The notes beneath the pieces were generated by a model. The model was not told where the DNA came from and searched no databases. It was given only the letters and a program-made list of their open reading frames with translations. A program made the translations under genes and the position numbers. From Shinella granuli (GTDB lineage: Bacteria; Pseudomonadota; Alphaproteobacteria; Rhizobiales; Rhizobiaceae): a DNA stretch of 64,000 bases. Location: the NCBI RefSeq assembly GCF_004341885.1, contig NZ_SLVX01000006.1:1-64000 (forward strand), given 5' to 3'. This document shows, piece after piece, positions 13,042 through 26,171 of the stretch (the stretch's first letter is position 1; the number at the start of each line of letters is the position of its first letter).

Positions 13042-14160
13042 TCAGGCATAGACCGCTTCCGCAAGTCGCCGGCAGCCGTCGATAAGGTTCGGCTCCTGCA
13101 GCAGCGCGCCGCCGACGAGATACATGACGTCCTTGCCGTAGACCGCGCGCATCTCCGGCACGCGGGCGAAATTCACGCCGCCGCCCGGCGCCGGGACGCC
13201 CGCCTTCGGCCCGCCCATCTCCACCGCGCAGGCCTCCGCGATCGACCGGCATTCCTCGCGGGTGAAGCCGAAGCGGCCGCCGAAATTCGGAAACACCACG
13301 GCGTCCGCGCCCATCAGCCGGTGCAGCACGCCGTAGAAGGCGCGGTGCGAGAAACCGCAATCCGGCGAAACGACATTCGCGCCGGAAAAGGCGGGATGCG
13401 CGACGATGGGCAGGGAAAAGTCCGGATCGGCGGCCAGCATGCGCGCCACGTCGTAGCCGGCAAGCGCCGGGGCGATCATGACGGCGCCCGCGCCGGCGGC
13501 CTCCGCTTCCTTCGCCCTTTCGAGGATGGCGTCGGCCGGGCCGGTGATGTTGGGCACGAAGCTGGTCCGTCCGCCGCTCTTCGCATTCGCCTCGCCGACG
13601 GCCTCGACGCAGGCCTTCAGCCGCTCGGAGAAGGGCGCGGTCCTCTGGTCGACCAGCCCGTGGTCGTCCTTCACGTAATGCATGCCGCCGAGCGCGAAAT
13701 CATGGGCGAGGCGGGCCAGCGCGGCCGTGGAAAGGCCGACGGGCTTGATCGCCGACATGAGGAGCGGGATATCGCCGATGCCCGCGCGGGCGCGGAGCCC
13801 CGTGATGCCATGACGCGGCCCCTTGCAGAGCGAAAGAATGCCCGGCGAAAGGCCGATGTCCTCGACCTTGAGGCCCGGCTTGATCGAGCTGTTGCCGAAG
13901 ACGATGTTGAGGAACTGCAGGAAGTCGCCGCCGACATCGTCTTCGGAATAGGAGATCGTCGCGAGAAAGCCCGGTCGACCGTCCGGGGCCTGCTCCAGCG
14001 TTTCCAGCCTGCCGAGGATCTCGTCCTCCACATAGCCCTTCGGCACCACGTCGCGCGGGATCTCGACCGTCTGCTCCAGCGCGATGTCGAGCGCCCGGGC
14101 TTTGGCCTCCGCCGCATCGGCCGCGCGGACGAAATAGCGGACGGTGAAGCGCGGCGCCAT
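13042..14160 (-). CDS. RuBisCO-like protein (form IV)
   Basis: 372 residues with the RuBisCO large-subunit fold: an N-terminal domain (about 1-125) and an alpha/beta barrel. Lys139 in SAIKPVGLS matches the catalytic Lys175 region. The metal-ligand motif is KDDH (164-167) instead of KDDE. His255 (VAHPAFSG) and the phosphate loop APGGGV (324-329) are kept. The loop-6 Lys is absent (PNFGGRFGFT, 291-300), so it should not fix CO2. In Rhodospirillum rubrum an RLP isomerises 5-methylthioribulose-1-phosphate. With mtnK and mtnA upstream in the same operon, a similar methylthio-sugar phosphate isomerase is the best guess. The start overlaps the transketolase stop by one base. Confidence 0.88.
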   Translation of the reverse strand: MAPRFTVRYFVRAADAAEAKARALDIALEQTVEIPRDVVPKGYVEDEILGRLETLEQAPDGRPGFLATISYSEDDVGGDFLQFLNIVFGNSSIKPGLKVEDIGLSPGILSLCKGPRHGITGLRARAGIGDIPLLMSAIKPVGLSTAALARLAHDFALGGMHYVKDDHGLVDQRTAPFSERLKACVEAVGEANAKSGGRTSFVPNITGPADAILERAKEAEAAGAGAVMIAPALAGYDVARMLAADPDFSLPIVAHPAFSGANVVSPDCGFSHRAFYGVLHRLMGADAVVFPNFGGRFGFTREECRSIAEACAVEMGGPKAGVPAPGGGVNFARVPEMRAVYGKDVMYLVGGALLQEPNLIDGCRRLAEAVYA

Positions 14161-15161
14161 CAGAGCGCCTCGGCCTTCTGGGCCGAATGCACGTGATCGA
14201 GGCGCACCTCCGCCAGTTCCTCCTCGCCGATACCAAGCGTCTTGCCGAGCAGCGCCTCGATGGCGGTGACGAGCGCCCCGGCGTCGAGCCCGTATTTCTT
14301 CATGAGATAGGGTTTCGACGCGCCGTGCGCGAAGGTGTCGTCGAGGCCGAGGCGCCTGAGGCGGATGCCCAGCCCCTCCTCGGCGAGGATTTCCGCCACC
14401 AGCGAGCCGAGGCCGCCGACGATCGTGTGGTTCTCCAGCGTCACGATGCCCTTTTTGCCGCGGGCGGCCTGCAGGAGGCCGTCCCGGTCGAAGGGTTTCA
14501 GCGTCGAGGCGTGCAGGTGGTGGACGTAAACGCCGCGCGTCTTCAGCGGCTGGATCGCACGCAAGGCCTCCTCCGTGCAGACGCCCGAGGAGACGACGAG
14601 AATGTCGTCGCCCTCCGAAAGCGTGCGCAGCCGGTTGAATTCGAAGGGCGTCGAGAAGAGGCGGGGCACCTCGCCGCGCAGGACGCGCACATAGACCGGC
14701 CCGTCGATGCTGTCGGCGACGTCGAGCACGGTCTCGACTTCCGTCGCGTCCCCCGTCTCGAGGATCGTCATGTTCGGCACGGCACGCAGCACGGCGATGT
14801 CCTCGATCGCCTGGTGCGTGATGCCGCCGGGCGTGGTGATGCCGGGCAGGAAGCCCATCAGCCGCACCTTGCGGTTGGAATAGGCGATGGAATTGATGAG
14901 CTGGTCATAGGGCCGGCGATAGAGGAAGACCGAGAAGGTGTGCAGGAACGGCCGGAATCCCTGCATGGCGAGGCCGCCGGCGAAGGAGAGCATGTTCTGC
15001 TCCGCCATGCCGAGCGACAGGAATTGGTCCGGATGCCGGTCGCGGAACCCGTCGACCTCGCAGGACGAGGTGAGGTCGGCGGAAAGGCACAGAACCTCCG
15101 GCCGCGCGCTGGCGAAGGCCTCGAACGCCCTGGCGTAGGGACGGTTGACGATCTCGACCAT
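14160..15161 (-). CDS. transketolase C-terminal subunit
   Basis: 333 residues covering the pyrimidine-binding domain and the C-terminal domain of transketolase. Visible are SLGMAEQNMLSFAGGLAMQGFRPFLHTFSVFLYRRPYDQL (the glutamate of MAEQN activates thiamine diphosphate), GVTH-type GGITHQAIEDIAVLRAVPNM, and the C-terminal EEALRAIQPL and NHTIVGGLGSLVAEIL blocks. It works with the N-terminal subunit encoded two bases upstream. In this operon it is expected to act on a methylthio-pentulose phosphate made by the RuBisCO-like protein, transferring or cleaving its two-carbon end (inference). The similarly split transketolases of apulose catabolism are an alternative reading. Confidence 0.85.
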   Translation of the reverse strand: MVEIVNRPYARAFEAFASARPEVLCLSADLTSSCEVDGFRDRHPDQFLSLGMAEQNMLSFAGGLAMQGFRPFLHTFSVFLYRRPYDQLINSIAYSNRKVRLMGFLPGITTPGGITHQAIEDIAVLRAVPNMTILETGDATEVETVLDVADSIDGPVYVRVLRGEVPRLFSTPFEFNRLRTLSEGDDILVVSSGVCTEEALRAIQPLKTRGVYVHHLHASTLKPFDRDGLLQAARGKKGIVTLENHTIVGGLGSLVAEILAEEGLGIRLRRLGLDDTFAHGASKPYLMKKYGLDAGALVTAIEALLGKTLGIGEEELAEVRLDHVHSAQKAEAL

Positions 15162-15163
15162 GG

Positions 15164-16099
15164 TCAGGCCCCTTCCATCGCGTTCACGTCGACGCCGAGT
15201 TCGGCGGCGAGCGCCGCCTGCATTTCCAGCCGTTCCTCGGCGCTCTTGAAGCGAACGTAGTGGAGGCGCGGAAAGCGCTTCTTCAGAAAATCCATGCCCT
15301 GATAGGGCGAGGTGTTGGCGAGGATGACCAGCGGCTTGCCGGCCTCCGCGCTCTCCGCCGCAGCGCGGAGCGCTTCAAGATCGTGTCCGTCCACCGCGCG
15401 GCAGGTGACGCCGAAGGCGGCGACGCGGGCGGCAAGATCGCCGAGGTCGAGCACGGAGGACATCGCCCCGTCGCATTGCTGGCGGTTCACGTCGACGATG
15501 ACGCGGATATTGTCGATCCCGTGATGGCTCATCGCCGCAAGGCATTCCCAGGTCTGCCCCTCCTGGAACTCGCCGTCGGACATGTAGACCCAGATCTTGC
15601 CCCGCTCCTTCTTGCGCAGCCGCGCCCAGGCGACGCCGGAGGCCATGGAAAGGCCCTGCGCCAGCGAGCCCGTCGTCACCTCCATGCCGGGGCTGTGCTC
15701 GGCGCCGATCATCTCGACCGAACCGCCGTCCTTGTTGAAATGGTCGAGCGCATGCTCGTCCATGCGGCCCGTCTCGATCAGCGCGGAATAGATGACGAGC
15801 GCATAATGGGCGGGCGAGATGAAGAAGCGGTCGAAGTCCGGCCCGGCCGGGCCATGGTAGCCCGCGCCGGTGAAGGCGTCGGGATTATGCGCCGAGGGCA
15901 CGCCGCGGAAGGGCAAGGGCACCTTGGGCAGCGTGGGCTCGCCGAGCGTCAGAAGTTCGTTGTAGAGCAGCGCCAGGCTCTCGGCGGCCGAGCAGGCCTG
16001 GCTGAGATAGCCGCCATTGTTCTTCATCGTGTGGAAGAAGACGCGCCGGCGGATGCCGAGCGCGATGTCCTCGGTGGATTTTTCGTTCGCAAGGCTCAT
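15164..16099 (-). CDS. transketolase N-terminal subunit
   Basis: 311 residues matching the thiamine-diphosphate domain of transketolase. SDGEFQEGQTWE with the following VDVNRQQ marks the diphosphate/Mg site (SDG in place of the usual GDG). HNPDAFTGAGYHGPAGPDFDRFFISPAHYALVIYSAL and GSLAQGLSMASGVAWA are further family blocks. Split transketolases are common in catabolic operons. It lies four bases after mtnA and two before the C-terminal subunit, in the order mtnK-mtnA-tktN-tktC-RLP. Confidence 0.86.
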   Translation of the reverse strand: MSLANEKSTEDIALGIRRRVFFHTMKNNGGYLSQACSAAESLALLYNELLTLGEPTLPKVPLPFRGVPSAHNPDAFTGAGYHGPAGPDFDRFFISPAHYALVIYSALIETGRMDEHALDHFNKDGGSVEMIGAEHSPGMEVTTGSLAQGLSMASGVAWARLRKKERGKIWVYMSDGEFQEGQTWECLAAMSHHGIDNIRVIVDVNRQQCDGAMSSVLDLGDLAARVAAFGVTCRAVDGHDLEALRAAAESAEAGKPLVILANTSPYQGMDFLKKRFPRLHYVRFKSAEERLEMQAALAAELGVDVNAMEGA

Positions 16100-16103
16100 C
16101 GTC

Positions 16104-17198
16104 TCAGCTCCGTTCGGGAAAGAGCGCCTTCAGGCCCTCGGGCGAGGGCGTGGCGATGCCGCGTTCCGTGATGAGGCCGGTGATGAGGCGCGCGGGCGTG
16201 ACGTCGAAGGCGGGGTTCGCCGCCGGGCTGCCCTCCGGCGAGATGCGCACGCTGGCGATGGAACCATCCTCTGCGCGGCCCTGCACGAAGCTCACCTCGT
16301 CGCCGGCCCGCTCCTCGATCGGGATGTCCCTGATGCCGTCCTCCACCGTCCAGTCGATGGTGGGCGAGGGGAGCGCCACATAGAAGGGCACGTTGTTGTC
16401 GCGCGCGGCGAGCGCCTTCAGATAGGTGCCGATCTTGTTGCAGACGTCGCCGTTCGCCGTGGTGCGGTCGGTGCCGACGATCACCAGGTCGACGTCGCCG
16501 TGCTGCATGAGATGGCCGCCGGCATTGTCGACGATCAGCGTGTGCGGCACGCCATGGCCGTTCATCTCCCAGGCGGTGAGGTAGGCCCCCTGGTTGCGCG
16601 GCCGCGTCTCGTCGACATAGACATGGACGGGAATGCCTTCCTCGACGGCCATGTAGATCGGCGCGGTCGCGGTGCCGTAGTCGACGGTCGCCAGCCAGCC
16701 GGCATTGCAATGGGTGAGGATGCGCACTGGCTCGCCCGGCTTTTTCTTCGCCGCGATCTCGCGGATCACGTCGAGGCCGTTCGCGCCGATGGCGCGGTTG
16801 AGCTCGACGTCCTCCTCCGCGATTTCAGCGGCGCGCGTATAGGCAGCGGCCGTGCGCTCGCCTTCCGGCAGCGGGCGAAGGTGCTCGCGCATCGCGTTCA
16901 GCGCCCAGCGCAGGTTGATGGCGGTCGGGCGCGTTTCGTTGAGCTCTTCCCAGACGGCGTCGAGATGCGCATCCGACGGGTCCGTCGCCATGGCGATGGC
17001 GACGCCATAGGCGGCGGTGACGCCGATCAGCGGCGCGCCGCGCACCCACATGTCGCGGATCGCGGTGGCGATGTCGGCGACGGTCGTGAGCGTCACGACG
17101 CGGAACTCATGCGGCAGCCAGCGCTGGTCGATGATGTCGACCGAGCGGCCGTCCTCGTTCAGCCAGATCGTATGGTAGTGGCGTTCTCCGACTTTCAC
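16104..17198 (-). CDS. mtnA: S-methyl-5-thioribose-1-phosphate isomerase
   Basis: 364-residue isomerase converting 5-methylthioribose-1-phosphate to 5-methylthioribulose-1-phosphate in methionine salvage. Diagnostic features are [13 protein letters not shown] (about 55-67), the catalytic Cys in [10 protein letters not shown], the [12 protein letters not shown] block and the catalytic Asp in [19 protein letters not shown]. Length is typical of MtnA and of the related eIF2B-alpha-like fold; R15P isomerase is less likely given mtnK next door. Its ATG overlaps the mtnK TGA by four bases. The usual downstream mtnB, mtnC, mtnD and mtnE genes are absent; transketolase and a RuBisCO-like protein follow instead. 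Confidence 0.92.
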
Positions 17199-18466
17199 GC
17201 GAGGATCTCCTTTTCAAGCCGCTCCACGGTCTCGCGGATGTCGCGGAGGCTGTGGATGCGCTGCCGGTTGACGGCGAGGTGACGCCCGAGCTTCAGCGCC
17301 TTGGTCTCGCAGGGCGCGCGGCGGTCGGGGTCGGCGATGGTTTCGAAATCGGCGTTGTGGGCAAGGCCCAGGATGCGGCGATGGATCTCGATGCCGGCGA
17401 AACCCAGCATCTCGCGCCAGATCTCGTCGATGACGATGGCGAGCGCCTGCTCGGCGGCGAGCGGGTCGCCACGATCCTCGAAGAGGCTCGCCTGATAGAG
17501 GATGCCCTTGCGCTCCGTGCGCCAGAGATGGGCGAATTCGGCCCGGAACGTTTCCCAGAGCGTCTCGATCGTATCGAGCAGATAAGCGCGCATGCCGTCG
17601 CGTGCGCCGGGTGCCGCCTCATGGCCGGCTTGCGAAAAATAGCTCATCCAGAAATTGGCGATCAGCATGCCGACGTCGAAGCTGATCGGGCCGTAGAAGG
17701 CGAATTCCGGGTCGATGACGCGCGTCTCGTCGTCCGTCACCATGACGGAGCCGGTGTGCAGGTCGCCGTGGCAGAGCGTCTCGGCCTTGGCGGAGAAGAG
17801 GTGCTTCAGCCGCTGCGCCTCCACCTTGAGGTCGCGGTCGGCGCGCAGATCCGCCACGATCGGGTCGAGCTGCGGCGTGGTGTGGCGGTTGAGCGCCGCC
17901 TCGAAATAGGGATCGGAAAAGACGAGGTTTTCCGTGATGTCGCAAAGCTCGACATTGTCGGCGAAGAGCGCGAGATCCGCCTTCTTCTCCCGCGTTGCCA
18001 TGGAAAGGTCCGAGCCGCGGAACAGCGTGCGGGCGGCAAAGAGCCCGAGGTCGCGGCCGATCCTCGGCAGTTCGCGCCCGTCGATCAGCGCGCGGCGCAG
18101 GATGACGTGCGGCGTCAGGTATTCCATGACGATGAGCGCCTGCGCCTCATCGAAGACGTAGATCTCCGGCACCATGCCCGGATCGCGCGCGGCCTGCCGC
18201 GTCAGCGCGTGATATTCGAAGAAGGAGCGCTTCAGCGGCAGCGGCCAGCTTTCGCCGACGAGCCGCACATAGGGCAGCGCCTGCTTGACGATTGCCGCGC
18301 CCCGATCCCCCGTCACGATGAAGACGAGGTTGAGGTTGCCGTCGCCGACCTCCTTGACGCTCCAATGGGACGAATCCGCCCCGATTTTCGCCTTCAGGAC
18401 GGCGTTGCCGCCCAGCCGATCCGGCAATGTCTCGACGCTCAGCGCCGCGAAGACCTGGCTTTCCAT
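17195..18466 (-). CDS. mtnK: 5-methylthioribose kinase
   Basis: 423-residue kinase phosphorylating 5-methylthioribose at O1 with ATP. The protein-kinase-like fold shows [10 protein letters not shown] (glycine loop), [17 protein letters not shown] (ATP Lys), the catalytic [11 protein letters not shown] and the [15 protein letters not shown] metal-binding block, all typical of MtnK. I use the ATG at 18464..18466, which has GAGGAGGAG seven bases upstream; the upstream extension to 18550 would run into the operator. First gene of the leftward salvage operon, divergent from a ribose-type ABC importer. This implies that exogenous methylthioribose, or a close relative, is taken up and trapped by phosphorylation. 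Confidence 0.92.
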
Positions 18467-18546
18467 ATGCTTCTCCTCCTCGACGGGACGCGGCCTCCGC
18501 CGCCAGTCGTCCCACCATCCTTGCGCACAGCTAAGGCGGCATTCTG

Positions 18547-18573
18547 TCAAATGTCAATGGCCTTGACATTTGA
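18547..18573. promoter_or_regulatory. divergent mtn operator/promoter, 11-bp inverted repeat
   Basis: TCAAATGTCAA and TTGACATTTGA flank TGGCC; arms are perfect. Each arm contains a TTGACA hexamer reading outward, one toward the ABC operon and one toward mtnK, so a bound dimer would cover both -35 elements. The -10 regions are weak (TAACCT at 18587 on the plus strand). A related 13-mer occurs upstream of the SorC regulator at 26159..26171. Confidence 0.8.
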
Positions 18574-18612
18574 TGAGAGCCTATCCTAACCTGCCGTCAT
18601 CGGGAGGAAAGA

Positions 18613-20130
18613 ATGAGCGGTGAGGCGGTGTTTCGCATCGAGGGCGTGCGCAAGTCCTTTGGGCCGGTGACGGTGCTCCAGGGGGTGGACCTCGACCTCC
18701 GGGCCGGCGCGGTGACGGTTCTGATGGGCGCGAACGGCGCCGGCAAATCCACGCTCGTGCGCATCCTCTCCGGCGTCTACACGCGCGATGCCGGCGCCAT
18801 CACGCTCGCTGGCCAGTCCTTCGAGCCGGGAACGCCCGCCGAGGCGATCCGCGCCGGCGTCGTCACCGTGCACCAGAACATCAATGACGGCGTCGTCGCC
18901 GATCTCGACGTCGCCACCAACCTCACGCTCGACCGGCTGAACGGGCGCGGCGCGAAACTGTTCTTCAATCCGCGCCGGGTGCGCCGCGAGGCCGCCGCAG
19001 TGGCCGCCCGCATGGGCCTTGCCATCGATCTTGCCGCCAATATCAACGACCTGACGCTCGCCGACCGCCAGATGGTGGCGATCGCCCGGGCCATGGCGCA
19101 CGAGCCGAAGGTGCTGATCCTCGACGAGCCGACCTCCTCGCTCTCCAGCGCCGAGGCCGACCGCCTGTTCGATCTCGTCGACCGGCTGAAGGCGCGCGGC
19201 GTCGCCATTCTCTATATCTCGCACCGCATGTCGGATATCCGCCGCCTTGCCGACAGCATCCTCTCGCTGCGCGACGGCCGCATCACCGGCCGTTTCGAAG
19301 GGCCGGAGCTCGATTACGAGGGCGCGGTCAACGCCATGCTCGGCCGCAAGGTCTCGGCCGGCGCGGTCGCCGTGCGCGAGGCGGGCGCTCCGGTCTTCAG
19401 CGTGCGGGGCCTGAAGCTCTCCGAGCAGGCGCGGCCGTTCGATTTCGACCTCGGCGACGGCGAGATCGTCGCCGTCACCGGCCTCGTCGGCGTCGGCAAG
19501 ACGGCGCTCGCCGAAACGCTCTTCGGCGCCCGCGCGCCGGCAGCGGGCGAGATGGCACTCGACGGCCGGGGCTATGCGCCGAAAAGCACGGGCCAGGCGA
19601 TCGCCCGCGGCGTCTTCCTCGTCGCCAAGGACCGCGCGATCAGCGGCATCGTGCCTGATTTCAACATCTACGAGAATATCAGCCTGCCGTTCCTGCGCCG
19701 GCTCTCGGCCTTCGGCGTCGCGAGCCGGCGTGCGGAGAGGGCGAAGGCGCGCCGGCAGATCGACGCGCTCGGCGTCGTCTGCCGCAGCGAGCGCGACGAG
19801 ATGCAGACGCTGTCGGGCGGCAACCAGCAGAAGGTCATGGTCGGCCGCTGGCTTTCCGAGCCCGCGCGCCTCCTCATCCTCGACGAACCGTTCCAGGGCG
19901 TCGACATCGCCGCCCGCCGCGACATCGGCGAGAAGCTGCGCGCCTCGGCCGCCGGCCGCTCCACCATCCTCTTCCTCACCGAACTCGACGAAGCCTTCGA
20001 GGTCGCCGACCGCATCATCGTGATGTCGGAGCAGACCATCGTCGGCGCGCACCGCAACGCCGATATCGACGTCGAGCGGCTGCTCTCCGAGATCGCCGGG
20101 CAATTCTATCAACAGGTCCATGCATCATGA
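18613..20130 (+). CDS. ribose-type ABC transporter ATP-binding protein
   Basis: 505-residue cytoplasmic ATPase with two ABC domains, the RbsA/XylG layout. Domain 1 has Walker A GANGAGKST near 36-44 and Walker B VLILDEPTSSLS. Domain 2 has a variant Walker A GLVGVGKTA, the LSGGNQQKV signature and RLLILDEPFQGVD. It powers import by the permease encoded next; its TGA overlaps the permease ATG by four bases. First gene of the rightward operon, facing mtnK across the inverted repeat, which points to methylthioribose or a similar pentose as substrate (inference). A GGGAGG motif lies before the ATG. Confidence 0.93.
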   Translation: MSGEAVFRIEGVRKSFGPVTVLQGVDLDLRAGAVTVLMGANGAGKSTLVRILSGVYTRDAGAITLAGQSFEPGTPAEAIRAGVVTVHQNINDGVVADLDVATNLTLDRLNGRGAKLFFNPRRVRREAAAVAARMGLAIDLAANINDLTLADRQMVAIARAMAHEPKVLILDEPTSSLSSAEADRLFDLVDRLKARGVAILYISHRMSDIRRLADSILSLRDGRITGRFEGPELDYEGAVNAMLGRKVSAGAVAVREAGAPVFSVRGLKLSEQARPFDFDLGDGEIVAVTGLVGVGKTALAETLFGARAPAAGEMALDGRGYAPKSTGQAIARGVFLVAKDRAISGIVPDFNIYENISLPFLRRLSAFGVASRRAERAKARRQIDALGVVCRSERDEMQTLSGGNQQKVMVGRWLSEPARLLILDEPFQGVDIAARRDIGEKLRASAAGRSTILFLTELDEAFEVADRIIVMSEQTIVGAHRNADIDVERLLSEIAGQFYQQVHAS

Positions 20131-21173
20131 GCAGCGAACAGAGCAAACAGGCGGCCGCCGGCCCCGTCCCGCCGGCCCTCAATGTCAGGGAAGCCGCCAT
20201 CAAATACGGCTTCCTCGTGCTGCTCGCCGGCATGGTGCTCTATTTCTCGCTGGTGACGGGCGGTTTCGCCTCGCCGCAGAGCGCTGTCTTCATCCTGCAG
20301 TCCGTCTCGATCACCGGCATCCTCGCGCTCGGCGTCACGGCGACGCTGGTCGTCGGCGGCTTCGACCTTTCCATCGGCTCCGTCGCCACCACGGCGATGA
20401 TGGCCTCGTCCTATGTCATGGTGGTGATGGGCGGCGACGCGCTGACGGCGACGCTGGTCTGCCTTGCCGTCGGCGTGCTCGTCGGCCTCGTCAACGGCAT
20501 CATCATCGTCTACATGCGCGTGCCGGATCTTCTCGCCACGCTCGGCATGATGTTCCTCCTGCTCGGCCTCCAGCGCATCCCGACCGAGGGGCGCTCCATC
20601 GCGACCGGCATGACGCTGCCGGACGGCTCGACGGCGACGGGCGCCTTCAGCCCCGCCTTCCTCGCGCTCGGCCGCCACCGCTTCGATCTGGTCCTGCCCA
20701 ATCTCGTGCCGGTCTCGGTCGTCGTGCTGATCGTGCTCGCCATCGTCATATGGTTCTTCTTGGAATACACCCGCTTCGGCCGCATGATGTACGCCGTCGG
20801 CTCGAACGAGCGGGCGGCGAGCCTCGCCGGCGCCCCCGTCAACGCCTACAAGATCTCGGCCTACATCATCTCCGGCGTCTTCGCCTCGATCGGCGGCATT
20901 CTGCTCGCCGCCCGTCTCGGCCGCGGCGACATCGCCTCCGGCAACAACCTGCTTCTCGACGCCGTCGCCGCCGCGCTGATCGGCTTCGCCGTGCTGGGCG
21001 CCGCCAAGCCGAACGCCTTCGGCACCGCCGTCGGCGCGCTCTTCGTCGGCATCCTCCTGCAGGGCCTGACGATGATGAACGCGCCCTATTACACGCAGGA
21101 TTTCATCAAGGGCGCCGTGCTCGTCATCGCCCTGATCTTCACCTTTGCGCTCTCGAAAAGAGGCAAACGCTGA
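20127..21173 (+). CDS. ribose-type ABC transporter permease
   Basis: 348-residue inner-membrane permease of the RbsC/AraH class. About nine hydrophobic helices are visible. Conserved elements include GGFDLSIGSVATTAMM (the family LDLSVG region), MLFLLLGLQRIPT-type stretch, the cytoplasmic EAA-like loop GRMMYAVGSNERAASLAGAPVNAYK, and the QGLTMMNAPYYTQDFIKGAVL ending. It makes the translocation channel for the ATPase upstream and the binding protein downstream. Length is at the upper end for the family because of a longer periplasmic loop near residues 150-180. Confidence 0.93.
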   Translation: MSSEQSKQAAAGPVPPALNVREAAIKYGFLVLLAGMVLYFSLVTGGFASPQSAVFILQSVSITGILALGVTATLVVGGFDLSIGSVATTAMMASSYVMVVMGGDALTATLVCLAVGVLVGLVNGIIIVYMRVPDLLATLGMMFLLLGLQRIPTEGRSIATGMTLPDGSTATGAFSPAFLALGRHRFDLVLPNLVPVSVVVLIVLAIVIWFFLEYTRFGRMMYAVGSNERAASLAGAPVNAYKISAYIISGVFASIGGILLAARLGRGDIASGNNLLLDAVAAALIGFAVLGAAKPNAFGTAVGALFVGILLQGLTMMNAPYYTQDFIKGAVLVIALIFTFALSKRGKR

Positions 21174-21219
21174 GACCGCTCAGCGGACAACCAAAAGTTC
21201 ACCAGTGGAGGAGACTGAC

Positions 21220-22263
21220 ATGAACCTTACTCGCAGAACCCTGGGCAGGATAACGCTCGGGCTGATGGGCGCGGCGGCCTTCGCCGTGCCGTCCTTCGCC
21301 GCCGACATGCCGGCGCCCTTCGACAAGCCGGGCGACGTGAAGATCGCGCTCGTGCGCTACCTTTCGACCGGCGACTTCTTCCAGTCCTATCTCGCCGGCG
21401 TCGAGGCGCAGGCGAAAGCCATCGGCGTGGAGTTGCAGGTCTTCGACAGCCGCCAGGACGCGGCCCTCCAGGCCGACATGGTCGACCAGGCGATCGCGCT
21501 CGGTGTTCAGGGCATCATCATCCAGCACGGCCTGACGGAATCCATGAAGGAGGCCGCCCAGCGCGCGGTCGACGCCGGCATCAAGGTCGTCGCCTTCGAC
21601 GTCAACGTCGAGAACGAGAAGATCCCGCAGATCGAGCAGTCCGACCGCGACCTCGCGCGCCTGGCCCTCGAGCAGGCGATCAAGGACAATGGCGAGAGCT
21701 TCAAGGCGGGCTATGTCTACGTCGCCGGGATCGCGCCGCTCGACCGCCGCGACGAGACCTGGAAGGAATTCAAGGCGAAGTATCCGGGCATCAACGAGGC
21801 CGCCCAGTTCGGCACGATGGACAACCCGATCGCCAACTCGGTCGCCAACCAGGCCCGCTCGGTGATCTCCGCCAATCCCGACATCACCGTGATGTTCGCC
21901 CCCTATGACGAATTCGCCAAGGGCGTGAAGATCGCCGTCGACGAGGCGGGCCTCTCCTCCAGCGTGAAGATCTACTCCGCCGACATCTCGACCTCCGATA
22001 TCGCCGCCATGCGCGAATCCGGCTCCGCCTGGGTGGCGACGGCCGCGACGAACCCGGCCGTGGTCGGCCAGGTCTCCGTCCGCTCGCTGGCCATGCTGCT
22101 CGCCGGCGAGGATCCCGGCAAGCAGGTCATCGTCCCGCCAACGCTGATCACCCAGCAGGACCTCAACGACCAGGACATCAAGAACATGGAGGAGCTCGGC
22201 GCCAAGCTGCCGCAGTTCGCCCATGCCGACGTCGCCATGCCGGCCTGGATGCCGAAGCCCTGA
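21220..22263 (+). CDS. ribose-type ABC sugar-binding protein
   Basis: 347-residue periplasmic binding protein of the RbsB/peripla_BP_4 class. A signal peptide with twin basic residues (MNLTRRTLGRITLGLMGAAA) is cleaved after FAA near residue 27. KIALVRYLSTGDFFQSYLAGVEAQAKAIG and DMVDQAIALGVQGIIIQHG define the first lobe; the second begins near residue 115. GGAGGAG precedes the ATG at 21220; the longer frame from 21145 overlaps the permease. It determines importer specificity. The divergent mtnK suggests methylthioribose. Aromatic and acidic residues at the cleft (DSRQD, FDVN, YDEF) are compatible with a pentose-like ligand. Confidence 0.92.
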   Translation: MNLTRRTLGRITLGLMGAAAFAVPSFAADMPAPFDKPGDVKIALVRYLSTGDFFQSYLAGVEAQAKAIGVELQVFDSRQDAALQADMVDQAIALGVQGIIIQHGLTESMKEAAQRAVDAGIKVVAFDVNVENEKIPQIEQSDRDLARLALEQAIKDNGESFKAGYVYVAGIAPLDRRDETWKEFKAKYPGINEAAQFGTMDNPIANSVANQARSVISANPDITVMFAPYDEFAKGVKIAVDEAGLSSSVKIYSADISTSDIAAMRESGSAWVATAATNPAVVGQVSVRSLAMLLAGEDPGKQVIVPPTLITQQDLNDQDIKNMEELGAKLPQFAHADVAMPAWMPKP

Positions 22264-22378: not shown

Positions 22379-22654
22379 ATGAAGCTTTCCGAACAGGTCC
22401 GGCCGATCAGCTACTTGAAGGCGCATGCGCCGGAGGTCGTCCGCTCGCTGGCGGAAACCCGCAGGCCCGTGGTGCTGACCGTGCATGGCGAGGCCAAGGC
22501 CGTGCTTCAGGACGTCGGCCAATATGAAGAGACCCAGGAGACCCTGGCCCTCCTCAAGGTGCTGGCGCTGACCAATCGCCAGGTGGACGAGGGCAAGGTG
22601 CGCCCCGCCGGCGAAGCCTTCCCGCAGATCCGCCGGCGCCTCGCCGAACGCTGA
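22379..22654 (+). CDS. type II antitoxin, Phd/YefM family
   Basis: 91-residue antitoxin. The N-terminal half (VRPISYLKAHAPEVVRSLAETRRPVVLTVHGEAKAVL) is the Phd/YefM DNA-binding fold that forms a dimer on its own operator. The C-terminal half (about 50-91) is helical and charged, expected to wrap around the toxin. The TGA overlaps the toxin ATG by one base, so the two are translationally coupled. It sits between the methylthioribose importer and the aldolase gene, with no visible link to either. Confidence 0.9.
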   Translation: MKLSEQVRPISYLKAHAPEVVRSLAETRRPVVLTVHGEAKAVLQDVGQYEETQETLALLKVLALTNRQVDEGKVRPAGEAFPQIRRRLAER

Positions 22655-22977
22655 TGGGCTGGCGCGTTCTTCTCTCCGAGGACGCCGAACGGGATATCGA
22701 AGACCTCTATCGCTTCATCGCGCGCCGCGACGGGGCAGAAACCGCCGAGCGCATTCTCGGCGAGGTCGAGGCGGCCGCGATGAGCCTCGAAGAATTCCCG
22801 GAGCGCGGGAACATCCCGAAGGAATTGGTTTCCATCGGGATCAGCGACTATCGCGAGATCCATCACAAACCCTGGCGCGTGATCTACCGCATCATGGGAT
22901 CGGACGTCGTCATCTATTGTGTCGTCGACGGCCGCCGGGACATGCAGTCGTTTCTCGAGCGCCGGCTTCTTCGATAG
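22654..22977 (+). CDS. type II toxin, RelE/ParE family
   Basis: 107 residues with the ParE/RelE pattern: WRVLLSEDAERDIEDLYRFIARRDGAETAERIL at the N-terminus, then SLEEFPERGNIPKEL, YREIHHKPWRVIYRIMGSDVVIYCVVDGRRDM and an Arg-rich end. The family inhibits gyrase (ParE) or cleaves mRNA at the ribosome (RelE); the helical hairpin and the HKPWRVIYRI strand fit ParE or RelE equally, so the target is open. Paired with the antitoxin upstream and followed by an intrinsic terminator. Confidence 0.9.
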   Translation: MGWRVLLSEDAERDIEDLYRFIARRDGAETAERILGEVEAAAMSLEEFPERGNIPKELVSIGISDYREIHHKPWRVIYRIMGSDVVIYCVVDGRRDMQSFLERRLLR

Positions 22978-23027: not shown

Positions 23028-25082
23028 TCAGCGCATCGCTGCCGCGATATTGCCGCCGTCGACGGTGGTCACGTCGGCGGTCGTGCGTTCGGCGAGCGCG
23101 TGGTGCACGAAGGCGCGGGCGACGTCGTCCGCGGTCACTTCGAGGCCGAGCAGGTTGCCGCCCATATAGTCCTTGACGGAAAGGCCGCGGGCCGCGGCGC
23201 GGCTCTCGATCATCTCGTCATTGAGCAGGCCCGAGCGGATACGGTCGGCGTTGACGGCGTTGACGCGGATATGGTCGGCGCCGTGCTCCAGCGCGTATTG
23301 CCGCGAGAGGAACAGCGTCGCGGCCTTGGGCAGGCCGTAGGCGCCGAATTTCGCCCCCGGATTGACCGCCTGCTTGGAGGCGTTAAAGAGCAGCACGCCG
23401 CCGGTCTTCTGCGCCTTCATGATGCGCACGGCGTTCTGCGCGACGCTCTGGTGGGCGAAGAAGTTCAATTCGAAGCTCTTGCGCAGCAGCGCGTCGTCCA
23501 TCGTGGCGATCGGGCTTTCCCATGCCGCGCCCGCATTGGAGACGACGATGTCGACGCCGCCGAAGGTGGCGACGGCCTGATCGAAGGCGGCGCGCACGCA
23601 GGCGGGATCGGTGATGTCGGCGGCGATGCCGATCGAATGGTTGCCGGCGGCCTTCGCCACCGCGGCCGCCTTCCCGCCGTCGAGGTCGAGCACGACGGCA
23701 TGCGCGCCTTCCGCCACGAAGGCCTTGACGATCGCCGCGCCGATGGCGCCCGCGCCGCCGGTGACGAGCACGACCTGGCCGGTGAACGGCTTCGGCCTGG
23801 CGCCCGCCAGCTTCGCCTGCTCCAGCGACCAGTATTCGAGGTCGAAGAGGTCCGGCCGGCTGACCGGCTCGAAGCGGCCAAGGGCTTCCGCGTCGCGCGC
23901 CGCCTCGATCCACATCTCGCCGACATCGACGGCAATCGTCGCGTCCTTGTAGGTGCGGCCATGGCCGAACATGCCGAGGCCGGGCACCAGCGTCAGGCGC
24001 GGCATCGGATCGAGCATGATGCGCTTGACGTCGTCGCGGGCGTCGTTGCTGCGGAAATAGTCGGTGTAGTCGGCCGCGAAGGCGGCGACCCGTTCGTCGA
24101 TCACGGCGCGATAGCCCGCAAGGTCGTCCTTCGCCGGGGCCGGCAGCACCATCGGCCCCGTCTTGATGCGGATCGAGAGGTCGGGCGTCGAGACGCCGCG
24201 GGCGGCCATGTCCGCGACTTGCGCCGCGTTGACGAAATCAAGGATCGCCGGGGAGGCGCGGAAGACGCTGACCATGCGGTCGTAGCGGCCTTCGCCCCTG
24301 TCGACGGCGACGGCGCCGCGCAGCATCGGCGCGATGTCGCCGGGGTCGGCGAGCGCGGCGGGAAGGGCGGCCGGCGTAAACGGGTTGCGGCCGTTCCGCT
24401 TCACATGATCCTCGGCCAGCGTGACATGGTGGATCATCCGGTCATAGGCTTCCTTCGCCGTCTCGCCGAAGGTGAAGATGCCGTGCTTGTCGAGGATCAG
24501 GCCCTCGACCGTCGGATCCCGGTCGAACACCTCGGCGGCCGCCTTGGCGAGGGCGAAGCCGGGCATGATATAGGGCACGAAGCCCATCTTCCTGCCGAAG
24601 AGCTCGGCGCACATGCTTGCGCTCTCCGCCTGGTCGGCGATGGCGAGGATGGCGGTCGAATGGGTGTGGTCGACGAACTTGTGCGGCAGGAAGGCGTGCA
24701 GCAGCGCCTCGACGGACGGGTTCGGCGCGCCGGGATCGATGAGGTTGGCGCGCAGCAGCGTCACCATGTCCTCGTCCGAGAGTTTTGCGAGCTTGCGGCT
24801 CTTCAGCAGCGGGCCGATCTTCACCGCGGGCAGGCCCGGCGGCTCAATCGTGCCCATGTCCCAGCCGCTGCCCTTGACGCAGAGCACGGCATGCACGTCG
24901 CCGACGAGGTCGGTCATCTCCGTCTTCACCGAGGTGTTGCCGCCGCCATGCAGCACGAGCCGCGGCTCGCCGCCGAGAAGCCGCGTCGTATAGGTGCGCA
25001 GCGCCAGGTCGCGGTTGACGCCCTTTGCCGCATAGCCGGCGACGACCTGTTCCGCCTCGTCGTCGCGCCAGAGATTTTCCAT
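23028..25082 (-). CDS. bifunctional class II aldolase/short-chain dehydrogenase
   Basis: 684 residues. The N-terminal region (about 1-400) is a class II aldolase/adducin domain. DHTHST provides two Zn histidines and LILDKHGIFTFGE a third. The C-terminal region (about 430-684) is a complete SDR: TGGAGAIG coenzyme loop, SNAGAAWESP, and the catalytic Tyr-Lys in AYGLPKA. The layout and length are those of rhamnulose-1-phosphate aldolase/lactaldehyde dehydrogenase (RhaD type), which yields dihydroxyacetone phosphate and an aldehyde. No rhamnose isomerase or kinase is nearby. Its regulator carries a site like the mtn operator, so methylthioribulose-1-phosphate or another ketose-1-phosphate is also conceivable (inference). 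It forms an operon with the SorC gene. Confidence 0.88.
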   Translation of the reverse strand: MENLWRDDEAEQVVAGYAAKGVNRDLALRTYTTRLLGGEPRLVLHGGGNTSVKTEMTDLVGDVHAVLCVKGSGWDMGTIEPPGLPAVKIGPLLKSRKLAKLSDEDMVTLLRANLIDPGAPNPSVEALLHAFLPHKFVDHTHSTAILAIADQAESASMCAELFGRKMGFVPYIMPGFALAKAAAEVFDRDPTVEGLILDKHGIFTFGETAKEAYDRMIHHVTLAEDHVKRNGRNPFTPAALPAALADPGDIAPMLRGAVAVDRGEGRYDRMVSVFRASPAILDFVNAAQVADMAARGVSTPDLSIRIKTGPMVLPAPAKDDLAGYRAVIDERVAAFAADYTDYFRSNDARDDVKRIMLDPMPRLTLVPGLGMFGHGRTYKDATIAVDVGEMWIEAARDAEALGRFEPVSRPDLFDLEYWSLEQAKLAGARPKPFTGQVVLVTGGAGAIGAAIVKAFVAEGAHAVVLDLDGGKAAAVAKAAGNHSIGIAADITDPACVRAAFDQAVATFGGVDIVVSNAGAAWESPIATMDDALLRKSFELNFFAHQSVAQNAVRIMKAQKTGGVLLFNASKQAVNPGAKFGAYGLPKAATLFLSRQYALEHGADHIRVNAVNADRIRSGLLNDEMIESRAAARGLSVKDYMGGNLLGLEVTADDVARAFVHHALAERTTADVTTVDGGNIAAAMR

Positions 25083-25143: not shown

Positions 25144-26115
25144 TCAGCGCCCGGCCTTGCCGAGCCCCTCGCGGTTCCAGCGGTCCAGCACCCGCCGCGC
25201 CATCGATGCCGTGACGATGAGATGCGAGGCGAAGCCGCCCTTCAGCGCCGCCATCAGCGGCTCGAACTTGCTGTCCTCCTGCACGACGAGCATGCGCTTG
25301 CGGATCGCGCGGATGGAGGCGAGGTCGGCGGAGATGCAGCGCCGGTTGTGCTCGCAGTCCATCCACTGGCCGTCGTGGTCGATGAGCTGCCCGGCGATGA
25401 CGCCGGCCGCGCCCCGCTCGCCCATCGCGTGCATGTCGGCGGCCGAGAGCGCACCGCATTTGACGAGATGGCTGTCATCCTCGATGCCACCGACGGAATA
25501 GAGCGCGAGCTGGCAGTCGGAAATCGTCGCGAGCTGTTCCCGGATGACCGGCTCGCCGCGCAGCTCCTCGGCCAGCCGCTCGGAGGACAGCACGAGCGGT
25601 GCGTAGAAATTGATGCCCTCCGCATTGAGGCGGCGGGCGATTTCCGTGGTGCACTGGTCGGGACGATAGGAATAGGGCGCGCCGAGATTGCCGCAGAGTT
25701 GCACGACGGTGACGCCGCTGAGATCGGCGAAGGGCATGACATCGGCGATGTGATAGACGGTGCGGCCCCAGGCGACGCCGATCCGGTCGCCCTTGTTGAT
25801 GAGTTCGAGGAAGACCGAGGCGGCGACAACGGGCATTTCGGCGGCCGGGTCCATGGCCTGCCGGTCCTCCGGCACCAGCCAGGCCGTCGTCAGCCCCGTG
25901 GCGTCCTCCAGTTCGCGGGCGAGAACGTCGTCGGAAAAGAGGTCCGTCGAGGTGGTGATGGTGACGATGCCCATCTCGCGCGCCTTGCGCAGATACATGG
26001 CGATGGAGGCGCGGGAGATTTCCAGCTTCTGCGCCACTTCATCCTGCCGCAGCCCATGCGTATAATAGAGCCAGGCGGCCTTGTGGATGATCTGGTCGTT
26101 GGCGCGGATGGGCAT
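25144..26115 (-). CDS. SorC/DeoR-type sugar-binding transcriptional regulator
   Basis: 323 residues. The N-terminal HTH (HKAAWLYYTHGLRQDEVAQKLEISRASIAMYLRKAREMGIV, about 8-48) and the C-terminal sugar-binding domain (RIGVAWGRTVYHIADVMPF, ALYSVGGIEDDSHLVKCGALS, GVIAGQLIDHDGQ) are typical of SorC regulators, which respond to sugar phosphates. I use the ATG at 26113..26115 because the family usually starts close to the HTH; an ATG at 26145 would add 10 residues and lacks a ribosome-binding site. It is 61 bases upstream of the aldolase gene in the same direction, so it probably controls that gene and itself. Confidence 0.85.
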   Translation of the reverse strand: MPIRANDQIIHKAAWLYYTHGLRQDEVAQKLEISRASIAMYLRKAREMGIVTITTSTDLFSDDVLARELEDATGLTTAWLVPEDRQAMDPAAEMPVVAASVFLELINKGDRIGVAWGRTVYHIADVMPFADLSGVTVVQLCGNLGAPYSYRPDQCTTEIARRLNAEGINFYAPLVLSSERLAEELRGEPVIREQLATISDCQLALYSVGGIEDDSHLVKCGALSAADMHAMGERGAAGVIAGQLIDHDGQWMDCEHNRRCISADLASIRAIRKRMLVVQEDSKFEPLMAALKGGFASHLIVTASMARRVLDRWNREGLGKAGR

Positions 26116-26139
26116 TGAGGGTCTCTCGCGAAGGGGTTC

Positions 26140-26171
26140 TGACATTATTCATTGTCGCTGACAAAAGTCAA
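26140..26171. promoter_or_regulatory. candidate SorC operators upstream of sorC gene
   Basis: Two small inverted repeats lie side by side: GACA-N8-TGTC (26141..26156) and TGAC-N4-GTCA (26159..26170). Read on the minus strand, 26159..26171 is TTGACTTTTGTCA. This matches TTGACATTTGACA on the minus strand of the mtn operator (18545..18557) in 11 of 13 positions. Confidence 0.45.

Follow-up and report, generated by a model that had tools for sequence, protein, structure and literature searches.

How is a methylthio-sugar phosphate broken down when the enzyme known to act on it appears to be replaced, in the same genomic setting, by a split transketolase? The question is raised by a locus of Shinella granuli in the window analysed here, a stretch of 64,000 nucleotides comprising positions 1 to 64,000 of contig NZ_SLVX01000006.1 (assembly GCF_004341885.1). 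Genes for 5-methylthioribose kinase (MtnK), 5-methylthioribose-1-phosphate isomerase (MtnA), the two chains of a thiamine-dependent transketolase (TktN and TktC, together TktNC) and a RuBisCO-like protein (RLP) follow one another (Table 1). Few RLPs have a known partner, and for the branch concerned here, which bears the clade name DeepYkr (PMC5893883), that partner is a glutathione-using cupin. R. palustris RLP1 (RPA2169) makes 1-methylthio-xylulose-5-phosphate in vitro, and accumulation of this compound in a mutant of the cupin, RPA2170, identifies the cupin as the next step (PMC5893883). The R. rubrum and R. palustris cupin removes methanethiol from the RLP product (PMC5893883, PMC4334135), and the R. 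rubrum enzyme uses glutathione (PMC4334135). The comparisons described below make 1-methylthio-xylulose-5-phosphate the most likely substrate of TktNC, which would stand in for the cupin.

The evidence that carries this reading is an exchange of partners. Among 132 distinct RLPs, 97 lie beside the transketolase, 24 beside the cupin, 11 beside neither and none beside both; the total leans towards the window's kin, because the best 80 relatives were kept from a scan of 84,980 genomes that yielded at least 581 confirmed relatives. In 385 genomes drawn evenly from the window's class, 17 carried such an RLP, the window's included; 13 of the other 16 loci adjoin the cupin and 2 adjoin TktN-TktC, while the remaining one lies close to the end of its contig and shows neither. 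The clostridial phylum (398 genomes) gave 47 matches at 1e-40, nine of which scored at least 453.9 bits and lie beside a transketolase (six) or a cupin (three), while the remainder, at 262 bits or less, were treated as other RLP or RubisCO kinds. Among 398 genomes of Pseudomonadota there were 6 matches, 3 of them new (two transketolase, one cupin), and among 400 of Chloroflexota 13 matches, 12 of them new (six transketolase, three cupin, three neither). Closer to home, the RLP was matched in 84 of 151 relatives, many at ordinary RubisCO-like scores; the best 18 places, read at length, comprised 13 with TktN-TktC, three with the cupin (L052-L054) and two solitary truncated copies (L044, L045).

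Whole genomes were then scored for partner content. Of the 56 genomes with such an RLP identified at that point, 51 were covered (all but G006, G012, G015, G018 and G376); the 15 RLP genomes from the later Pseudomonadota and Chloroflexota scans are not among them. The transketolase was present in 29, the cupin in 21, both in none and neither in one. The RLP-linked TktC class, which scores at least 513 bits where everything else stays at or below 280, was found in 29/29 transketolase-type genomes and 0/22 others. The cupin (at least 209 bits) was found in 20/20 cupin-type genomes and in G544, whose RLP locus (L109) has no nearby partner although the cupin is encoded elsewhere; none of the 29 transketolase-type genomes contained it (best 37.6 bits). 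In the genome with neither partner, G002, the only RLP of this branch that was found is a 336-aa plasmid copy beside a diguanylate-cyclase gene. Fisher's test gives p = 2e-13 for this exclusion, a value that ignores kinship. The first-pass annotation had placed a thiamine enzyme after MtnK, MtnA and the RLP as a replacement for the cupin, and the observation that the two partners never occur together, either in the 132 loci or in the 51 genomes, gives that proposal strong comparative support.

The exchange appears to have happened repeatedly. On a larger RLP tree (93 of 136 rows), about six partner changes were counted, or four on well-supported branches only, and within Bacillota and Chloroflexota cupin-type rows branch from among transketolase-type ones; the bootstrap of this tree had not settled. 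A smaller tree (81 of 121 rows) gave five changes. Left out of the larger tree were close duplicates within the rhizobial set, three partial sequences (L103, L104, L140), the truncated L044, as well as L113, whose contig starts inside TktC and which is labelled transketolase by BLAST and neither by profile. Independent-pairs tests (5/5 on the smaller tree, 4/4 on starred branches of the larger) add nothing to the counts, because with the rows lacking a partner removed and none carrying both, each label necessarily excludes the other.

The RLP itself fits the proposed role. Its closest solved relative is 3qfw (241 bits), which we take to be an R. palustris protein, followed by 4nas (152 bits) and the MtnW structure 2zvi (141 bits). 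It is of the DeepYkr type, falling in one well-supported branch with cupin-linked RLPs and apart from the outgroup, and residues K139, K164, D166 and H167 are invariant in 13/13 aligned rows covering both partner types. By analogy with its characterised homologues, it is predicted to isomerise 5-methylthioribulose-1-phosphate. Other RLP genes were seen in passing. Copies of 336 aa, about 80% identical to the window's protein and missing some 40 N-terminal residues, occur on a Shinella zoogloeoides plasmid (L044/L059) and at L045/L085, adjoining a diguanylate cyclase/phosphodiesterase gene, and genome G009 has the same copy plus a full locus. The S. granuli genome (G000) also holds a second, stronger match to the RubisCO large chain (C9:193668-194486; PF00016, 249 bits), probably a true RubisCO.

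TktN and TktC resemble transketolases, with top scores on transketolase models and the split transketolase of Carboxydothermus (6yaj/6yak) as closest solved relative, and that they form one enzyme is supported by L136, in which they are a single 634-aa protein. We aligned 25 RLP-linked enzymes with paralogues from RLP-bearing genomes (15 loci for TktN; 19 for TktC, of which 4 are DXS-like). The catalytic glutamate (EQ) and the thiamine motif (SDGE, DxN) were kept in all 25, which also share the motifs IG(A/G)EHSPG in TktN and FLPG..(T/S)PGG.THQ in TktC. A second TktN motif, NNGGYLSQ, lies outside every paralogue stretch. The histidine of the QGHPD-type motif of TktN was missing in 25/25 RLP-linked enzymes and present in 13/15 paralogues; the histidine and aspartate of the THAG..GEDG-type motif of TktC were likewise missing in 25/25. 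These positions are presumably sugar-hydroxyl contacts in known transketolases, the QGHPD-type histidine being, we assume, the residue used for the donor's C1 hydroxyl. Judged by its sequences, the RLP-linked TktNC is a family of its own with constant, unusual motifs.

The gene set extends well beyond the Rhizobiales, in which the first-pass annotation had suggested looking for it. In Clostridium ljungdahlii and C. drakei (L135, L123) the genes rbsBAC-mtnK-mtnA-tktN-tktC-RLP stand in one row, Pseudovibrio (L126) has rbsACB-mtnK-mtnA-tktN-tktC-RLP, and four further loci (L107, L110, L131, L240) have the same set in other orders. The tktN-tktC-RLP triplet was also found in contigs, many of them metagenome-assembled, labelled Chloroflexota, Spirochaetota, Planctomycetota, Calditrichota, Nitrospirota and Deinococcota. 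All 14 RLP-bearing genomes searched contained MtnA, although in one it was just a partial gene where a contig ends. Around the 97 transketolase-type loci we counted MtnA 65 times, MtnK 58, an RbsB-type binding protein 59, a class II aldolase/dehydrogenase fusion 41 and a regulator 18 times; these are lower bounds, because many of the compared stretches are short. Repeated as it is across several phyla and in a large number of genera, the neighbourhood is more than chance.

Taken together, these data argue for the following route. The importer would take up 5-methylthioribose and perhaps similar riboses substituted at C5; MtnK would phosphorylate the methylthioribose and MtnA would convert the product to 5-methylthioribulose-1-phosphate, from which the RLP would form 1-methylthio-xylulose-5-phosphate. 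The reactions of MtnK and MtnA, like that of the RLP, are predicted from characterised homologues. TktNC would then add at C2 and cleave the C2-C3 bond, giving glyceraldehyde-3-phosphate and a methylthio-ethylidene-thiamine intermediate. With its methylthio group in the beta position, this intermediate would expel methanethiol to leave acetyl-thiamine, which could be hydrolysed to acetate or phosphorolysed to acetyl phosphate, and the freed methanethiol could feed methionine synthesis. Such a step would need neither oxygen nor glutathione. The products assigned to TktNC are a preferred reading drawn from chemistry alone. Thiamine enzymes that form acetyl-thiamine by departure of a beta leaving group include phosphoketolase, in which the group is water, and sulfoacetaldehyde acetyltransferase (Xsc); we know of none in which methanethiol leaves. 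For the route as a whole, from import to methanethiol release with TktNC in place of the cupin, we estimate a probability of about 60%, a confidence set by its resting mainly on the exchange. The more specific proposal that TktNC is phosphoketolase-like, converting 1-methylthio-xylulose-5-phosphate and phosphate to glyceraldehyde-3-phosphate, acetyl phosphate and methanethiol, with the cupin route as an alternative and several replacements of one by the other, is tentative and falls somewhat short of even odds.

Two variant loci may bear on the sulfur chemistry. Ponticoccus (L060) lacks the sugar importer and kinase at this locus and instead has a BMP-type importer, a purine-nucleoside phosphorylase and an amidohydrolase, making this a nucleoside-type version of the route. 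The amidohydrolase is related to 5'-methylthioadenosine (MTA)/5'-deoxyadenosine deaminases (best score 360 bits, on the TRZ/ATZ model, all scores below cut-off), and a relative of BisC-family S/N-oxide reductases between mtnA and tktN (901 bits, cut-off 1018) hints at a sulfur-bearing substrate. A 336-aa protein lacking a Pfam match is encoded there directly after the RLP (17157-18164). At L130, MetX and a pyridoxal phosphate (PLP)-dependent Cys/Met-type enzyme are encoded shortly after tktN-tktC-RLP. The pair was considered as methanethiol-to-methionine genes and counts as weak support, since the PLP enzyme scores 541 bits for cystathionine gamma-lyase (cut-off 594) and 330 of 495 for O-acetylhomoserine sulfhydrylase.

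The rest of the S. granuli genome (97 contigs; listed completeness 100, contamination 3.52) was searched for competing enzymes. MtnB, MtnC, MtnD and the cupin had been called absent from the locus, and MtnBCD genes elsewhere in the genome had been named as a possible refutation. Genome-wide, neither an acireductone dioxygenase (MtnD) domain (E <= 0.001) nor any protein related to the methylsulfurylase-type cupin (E <= 1e-6) was found. MtnB was not seen either; for MtnC no search was made. There are four class-II-aldolase domains, belonging to the window's fusion, a rhamnose-type fusion, a FucA-like protein and a short RhaD-like aldolase. On the MtnB model the FucA-like (fuculose/ribulose-1-phosphate-aldolase-like) protein reached 63 bits (cut-off 137), the short RhaD-like aldolase gave no row, and for the two RhaD-type fusions MtnB was not among the best 25 model rows. 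The three PF01048 places comprise one purine-nucleoside phosphorylase (371 bits; MTAP 93 of 275), one AMP nucleosidase and a third match of 33 bits; no MtnP or MtnN was recognised among them, two of the three having been classified, in keeping with a route that starts from methylthioribose taken up from outside.

One alternative retains the substrate and alters the outcome: TktNC would cleave the RLP product without releasing methanethiol, either transferring the methylthio two-carbon unit to an acceptor aldehyde or freeing (methylthio)acetaldehyde for another enzyme. The affinity of TktNC to transketolases, in best-scoring models and nearest structure alike, agrees with this, and enzymes that could take an aldehyde, namely an aldolase/dehydrogenase or an aldo-keto reductase, are encoded at some transketolase loci. 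However, the histidine that transketolases use for the donor's C1 hydroxyl is missing in all 25 RLP-linked enzymes compared, and exchange with the cupin suggests the same end result, freed methanethiol; this alternative is considered unlikely. A change of substrate is the more improbable proposal that the pathway serves 5-deoxyribose, the RLP converting 5-deoxyribulose-1-phosphate to 1-deoxy-xylulose-5-phosphate (DXP) and TktNC running a DXS-like reaction in reverse. The E. coli dihydroxyacetone phosphate (DHAP) shunt, with MtnK and MtnA, accepts both 5-deoxyribose and methylthioribose (PMC10986504), and DXS is the second-best NCBIfam model for TktC (165 bits, below cut-off). Yet the exchanged cupin is a dethiomethylating enzyme (PMC5893883, PMC4334135), the Ponticoccus reductase relative hints at sulfur, and aldolases already serve 5-deoxyribose elsewhere (PMC6079011).

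The linked aldolase/dehydrogenase could itself be the real outlet, as in a DHAP shunt, with RLP and TktNC acting on a different or side product. MtnK or MtnP with MtnA and a class II aldolase make up the known shunt (PMC5893883, PMC10986504). In the window's alphaproteobacterial group, 33 of 50 loci carry the gene, 8 have the regulator without it and 9 have neither, the stretches often ending there; it also occurs at transketolase loci of other phyla. Against this, within the stretches read, it was seen in neither the clostridial nor the Ponticoccus loci, while TktNC and RLP stay together. The gene is accessory or variably placed (Pseudovibrio has a separate class II aldolase beside the importer). 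Its linkage points to an additional branch resembling the DHAP shunt, and either that branch or 5-deoxyribose use may be its role; that it is the main outlet seems very improbable. Hardly credible is a D-apiose-type pathway, in which a split transketolase would act on apulose-4-phosphate alongside an OiaX-type RLP. RLPs of apiose catabolism are mentioned in PMC6302742. Apiose pathways combine a split transketolase with an RLP. The window RLP scores 58 of 700 bits on the OiaX model, the locus has MtnK as its kinase and MtnA as its isomerase, and the exchange is with a methylsulfurylase-type cupin; the low OiaX score and the MtnK/MtnA pair led us to reject this reading, which the first-pass annotation had named as a possible refutation.

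Several points count against the preferred route, methanethiol release by TktNC. Its support is comparative, drawn from gene content, conservation, the cupin exchange and distinct motifs. The exchange marks TktNC as a functional alternative to the cupin and leaves the bond that is broken unspecified. The losses in the TktC motif recur in paralogues (histidine in 7/19, aspartate in 8/19), so that these residue changes are not special to the family and cannot name a substrate. The aldolase/dehydrogenase, present at 41 of the 97 transketolase loci, is another outlet for the same intermediate. The 11 of 132 RLPs with neither partner nearby, several of them at contig ends, and two Chloroflexota cupins that match weakly (77-78 bits) soften the exchange. 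L114 and L122, both from Thiotrichaceae, have TktC next to the RLP with no TktN immediately ahead, although the upstream sequence reaches 9 kb in L114 and 0.9 kb in L122.

Table 1. Genes of the methylthioribose locus and its neighbours, with positions in the window
Gene product	Positions	Strand	Remarks
RLP, RuBisCO-like protein; predicted isomerase	13042..14160	-	372 aa; branch includes cupin-linked relatives like R. palustris/R. rubrum 5-methylthioribulose-1-phosphate 1,3-isomerases
TktC, pyrimidine-binding and C-terminal chain of split RLP-linked transketolase	14160..15161	-	333 aa
TktN, N-terminal thiamine-diphosphate-binding chain of the same transketolase	15164..16099	-	311 aa
MtnA, 5-methylthioribose-1-phosphate isomerase	16104..17198	-	364 aa; TIGR00512 441 bits (cut-off 279)
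MtnK, 5-methylthioribose kinase	17195..18550	-	TIGR01767 490 bits (cut-off 275)
RbsA-type ATPase, sugar importer	18613..20130	+	NCBIfam/Pfam domain models
RbsC-type permease, sugar importer	20127..21173	+	domain models
RbsB-type periplasmic binding protein	21145..22263	+	domain models; open reading frame extent, start codon somewhere within
Bifunctional class II aldolase/short-chain dehydrogenase, accessory neighbour	23028..25082	-	PRK08324.1-6 type; 1152 bits (cut-off 639)
SorC/DeoR-type regulator with sugar-binding domain	25144..26145	-	domain models

Open-reading-frame coordinates and profile matches bear out the tight order mtnK-mtnA-tktN-tktC-RLP noticed at first pass, with intergenic gaps of -4, 4, 2 and -1 nt on the minus strand, and the divergent RbsABC-type importer genes (18613-22263). 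The likely start of MtnK is the ATG at 18466, which gives 423 aa and matches the annotated R. rosettiformans homologue. TktN, TktC and RLP passed Pfam domain cut-offs and no NCBIfam cut-off, and are therefore named by family only. Shinella plasmid loci are 97% identical to the window's. Promoter-like and terminator-like patterns in the window were about as frequent as in shuffled sequence (2 vs 1.4 and 10 vs 7.5). Beyond the genes first recognised, the aldolase/dehydrogenase and the regulator recur in the same neighbourhood. The former is not simply the rhamnose enzyme, since a paralogous rhamnose-type aldolase/dehydrogenase (1244 bits, cut-off 634) is encoded elsewhere in the genome. Between it and the importer lies a ParE-type toxin gene (22654-22977, 74.5 bits), with a relative at the same place in L037, L038 and L039 and none detected in L040-L043. 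Elsewhere, an RbsD/FucU-type gene adjoins TktN in L051 and L131; Dak1 and DhaL dihydroxyacetone kinase subunits and an aldo-keto reductase are encoded between the RLP and importer genes of L110 (Chloroflexota); in L102, L103 and L104, individual genes of the set are broken up between reading frames; and the contigs of L105 and L139 begin at TktC.

If TktNC does replace the cupin, it would carry out a new thiamine-dependent reaction on a methylthio-sugar. Should it be the phosphoketolase-like enzyme proposed above, several phyla would be able to free methanethiol from methylthio-sugars with neither oxygen nor glutathione. With the cupin replaced, use of methylthioribose would become plausible for anaerobes such as C. 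ljungdahlii, there would be another biological source of the important sulfur volatile methanethiol, and two vague annotations (transketolase C-terminal domain-containing protein; RuBisCO large subunit C-terminal-like domain-containing protein) would acquire a function testable in vitro. No description joining this RLP with a transketolase was found in the open-access literature searched, most subscription papers lying outside the search.

Among known systems, universal methionine salvage (MtnBCD) includes an acireductone dioxygenase, MtnD, that has no counterpart in the S. granuli genome. The DHAP shunt (MtnK or MtnP, MtnA and the class II aldolase Ald2) has MtnK and MtnA in common with the locus, which carries an aldolase/dehydrogenase fusion close by, whereas the shunt itself includes neither RLP nor transketolase. 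The MTA-isoprenoid shunt of R. rubrum and R. palustris shares MtnA, the RLP branch and, presumably, the intermediate 1-methylthio-xylulose-5-phosphate. That shunt starts with MtnP, uses a glutathione-dependent cupin methylsulfurylase and yields DXP; the Shinella locus starts with MtnK and an importer and has a split thiamine-dependent enzyme and no such cupin. DXP would not be expected from it, because no reductant appears to be involved. With the split transketolase of Carboxydothermus hydrogenoformans (6yaj/6yak), TktNC shares the two-chain architecture, thiamine motif and catalytic glutamate, whereas the pocket motifs are replaced throughout the RLP-linked family, which forms a separate score class in the 51 genomes. 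In its chemistry, the proposed TktNC step would most resemble the formation of acetyl-thiamine by phosphoketolase and Xsc, which belong to other protein subfamilies.

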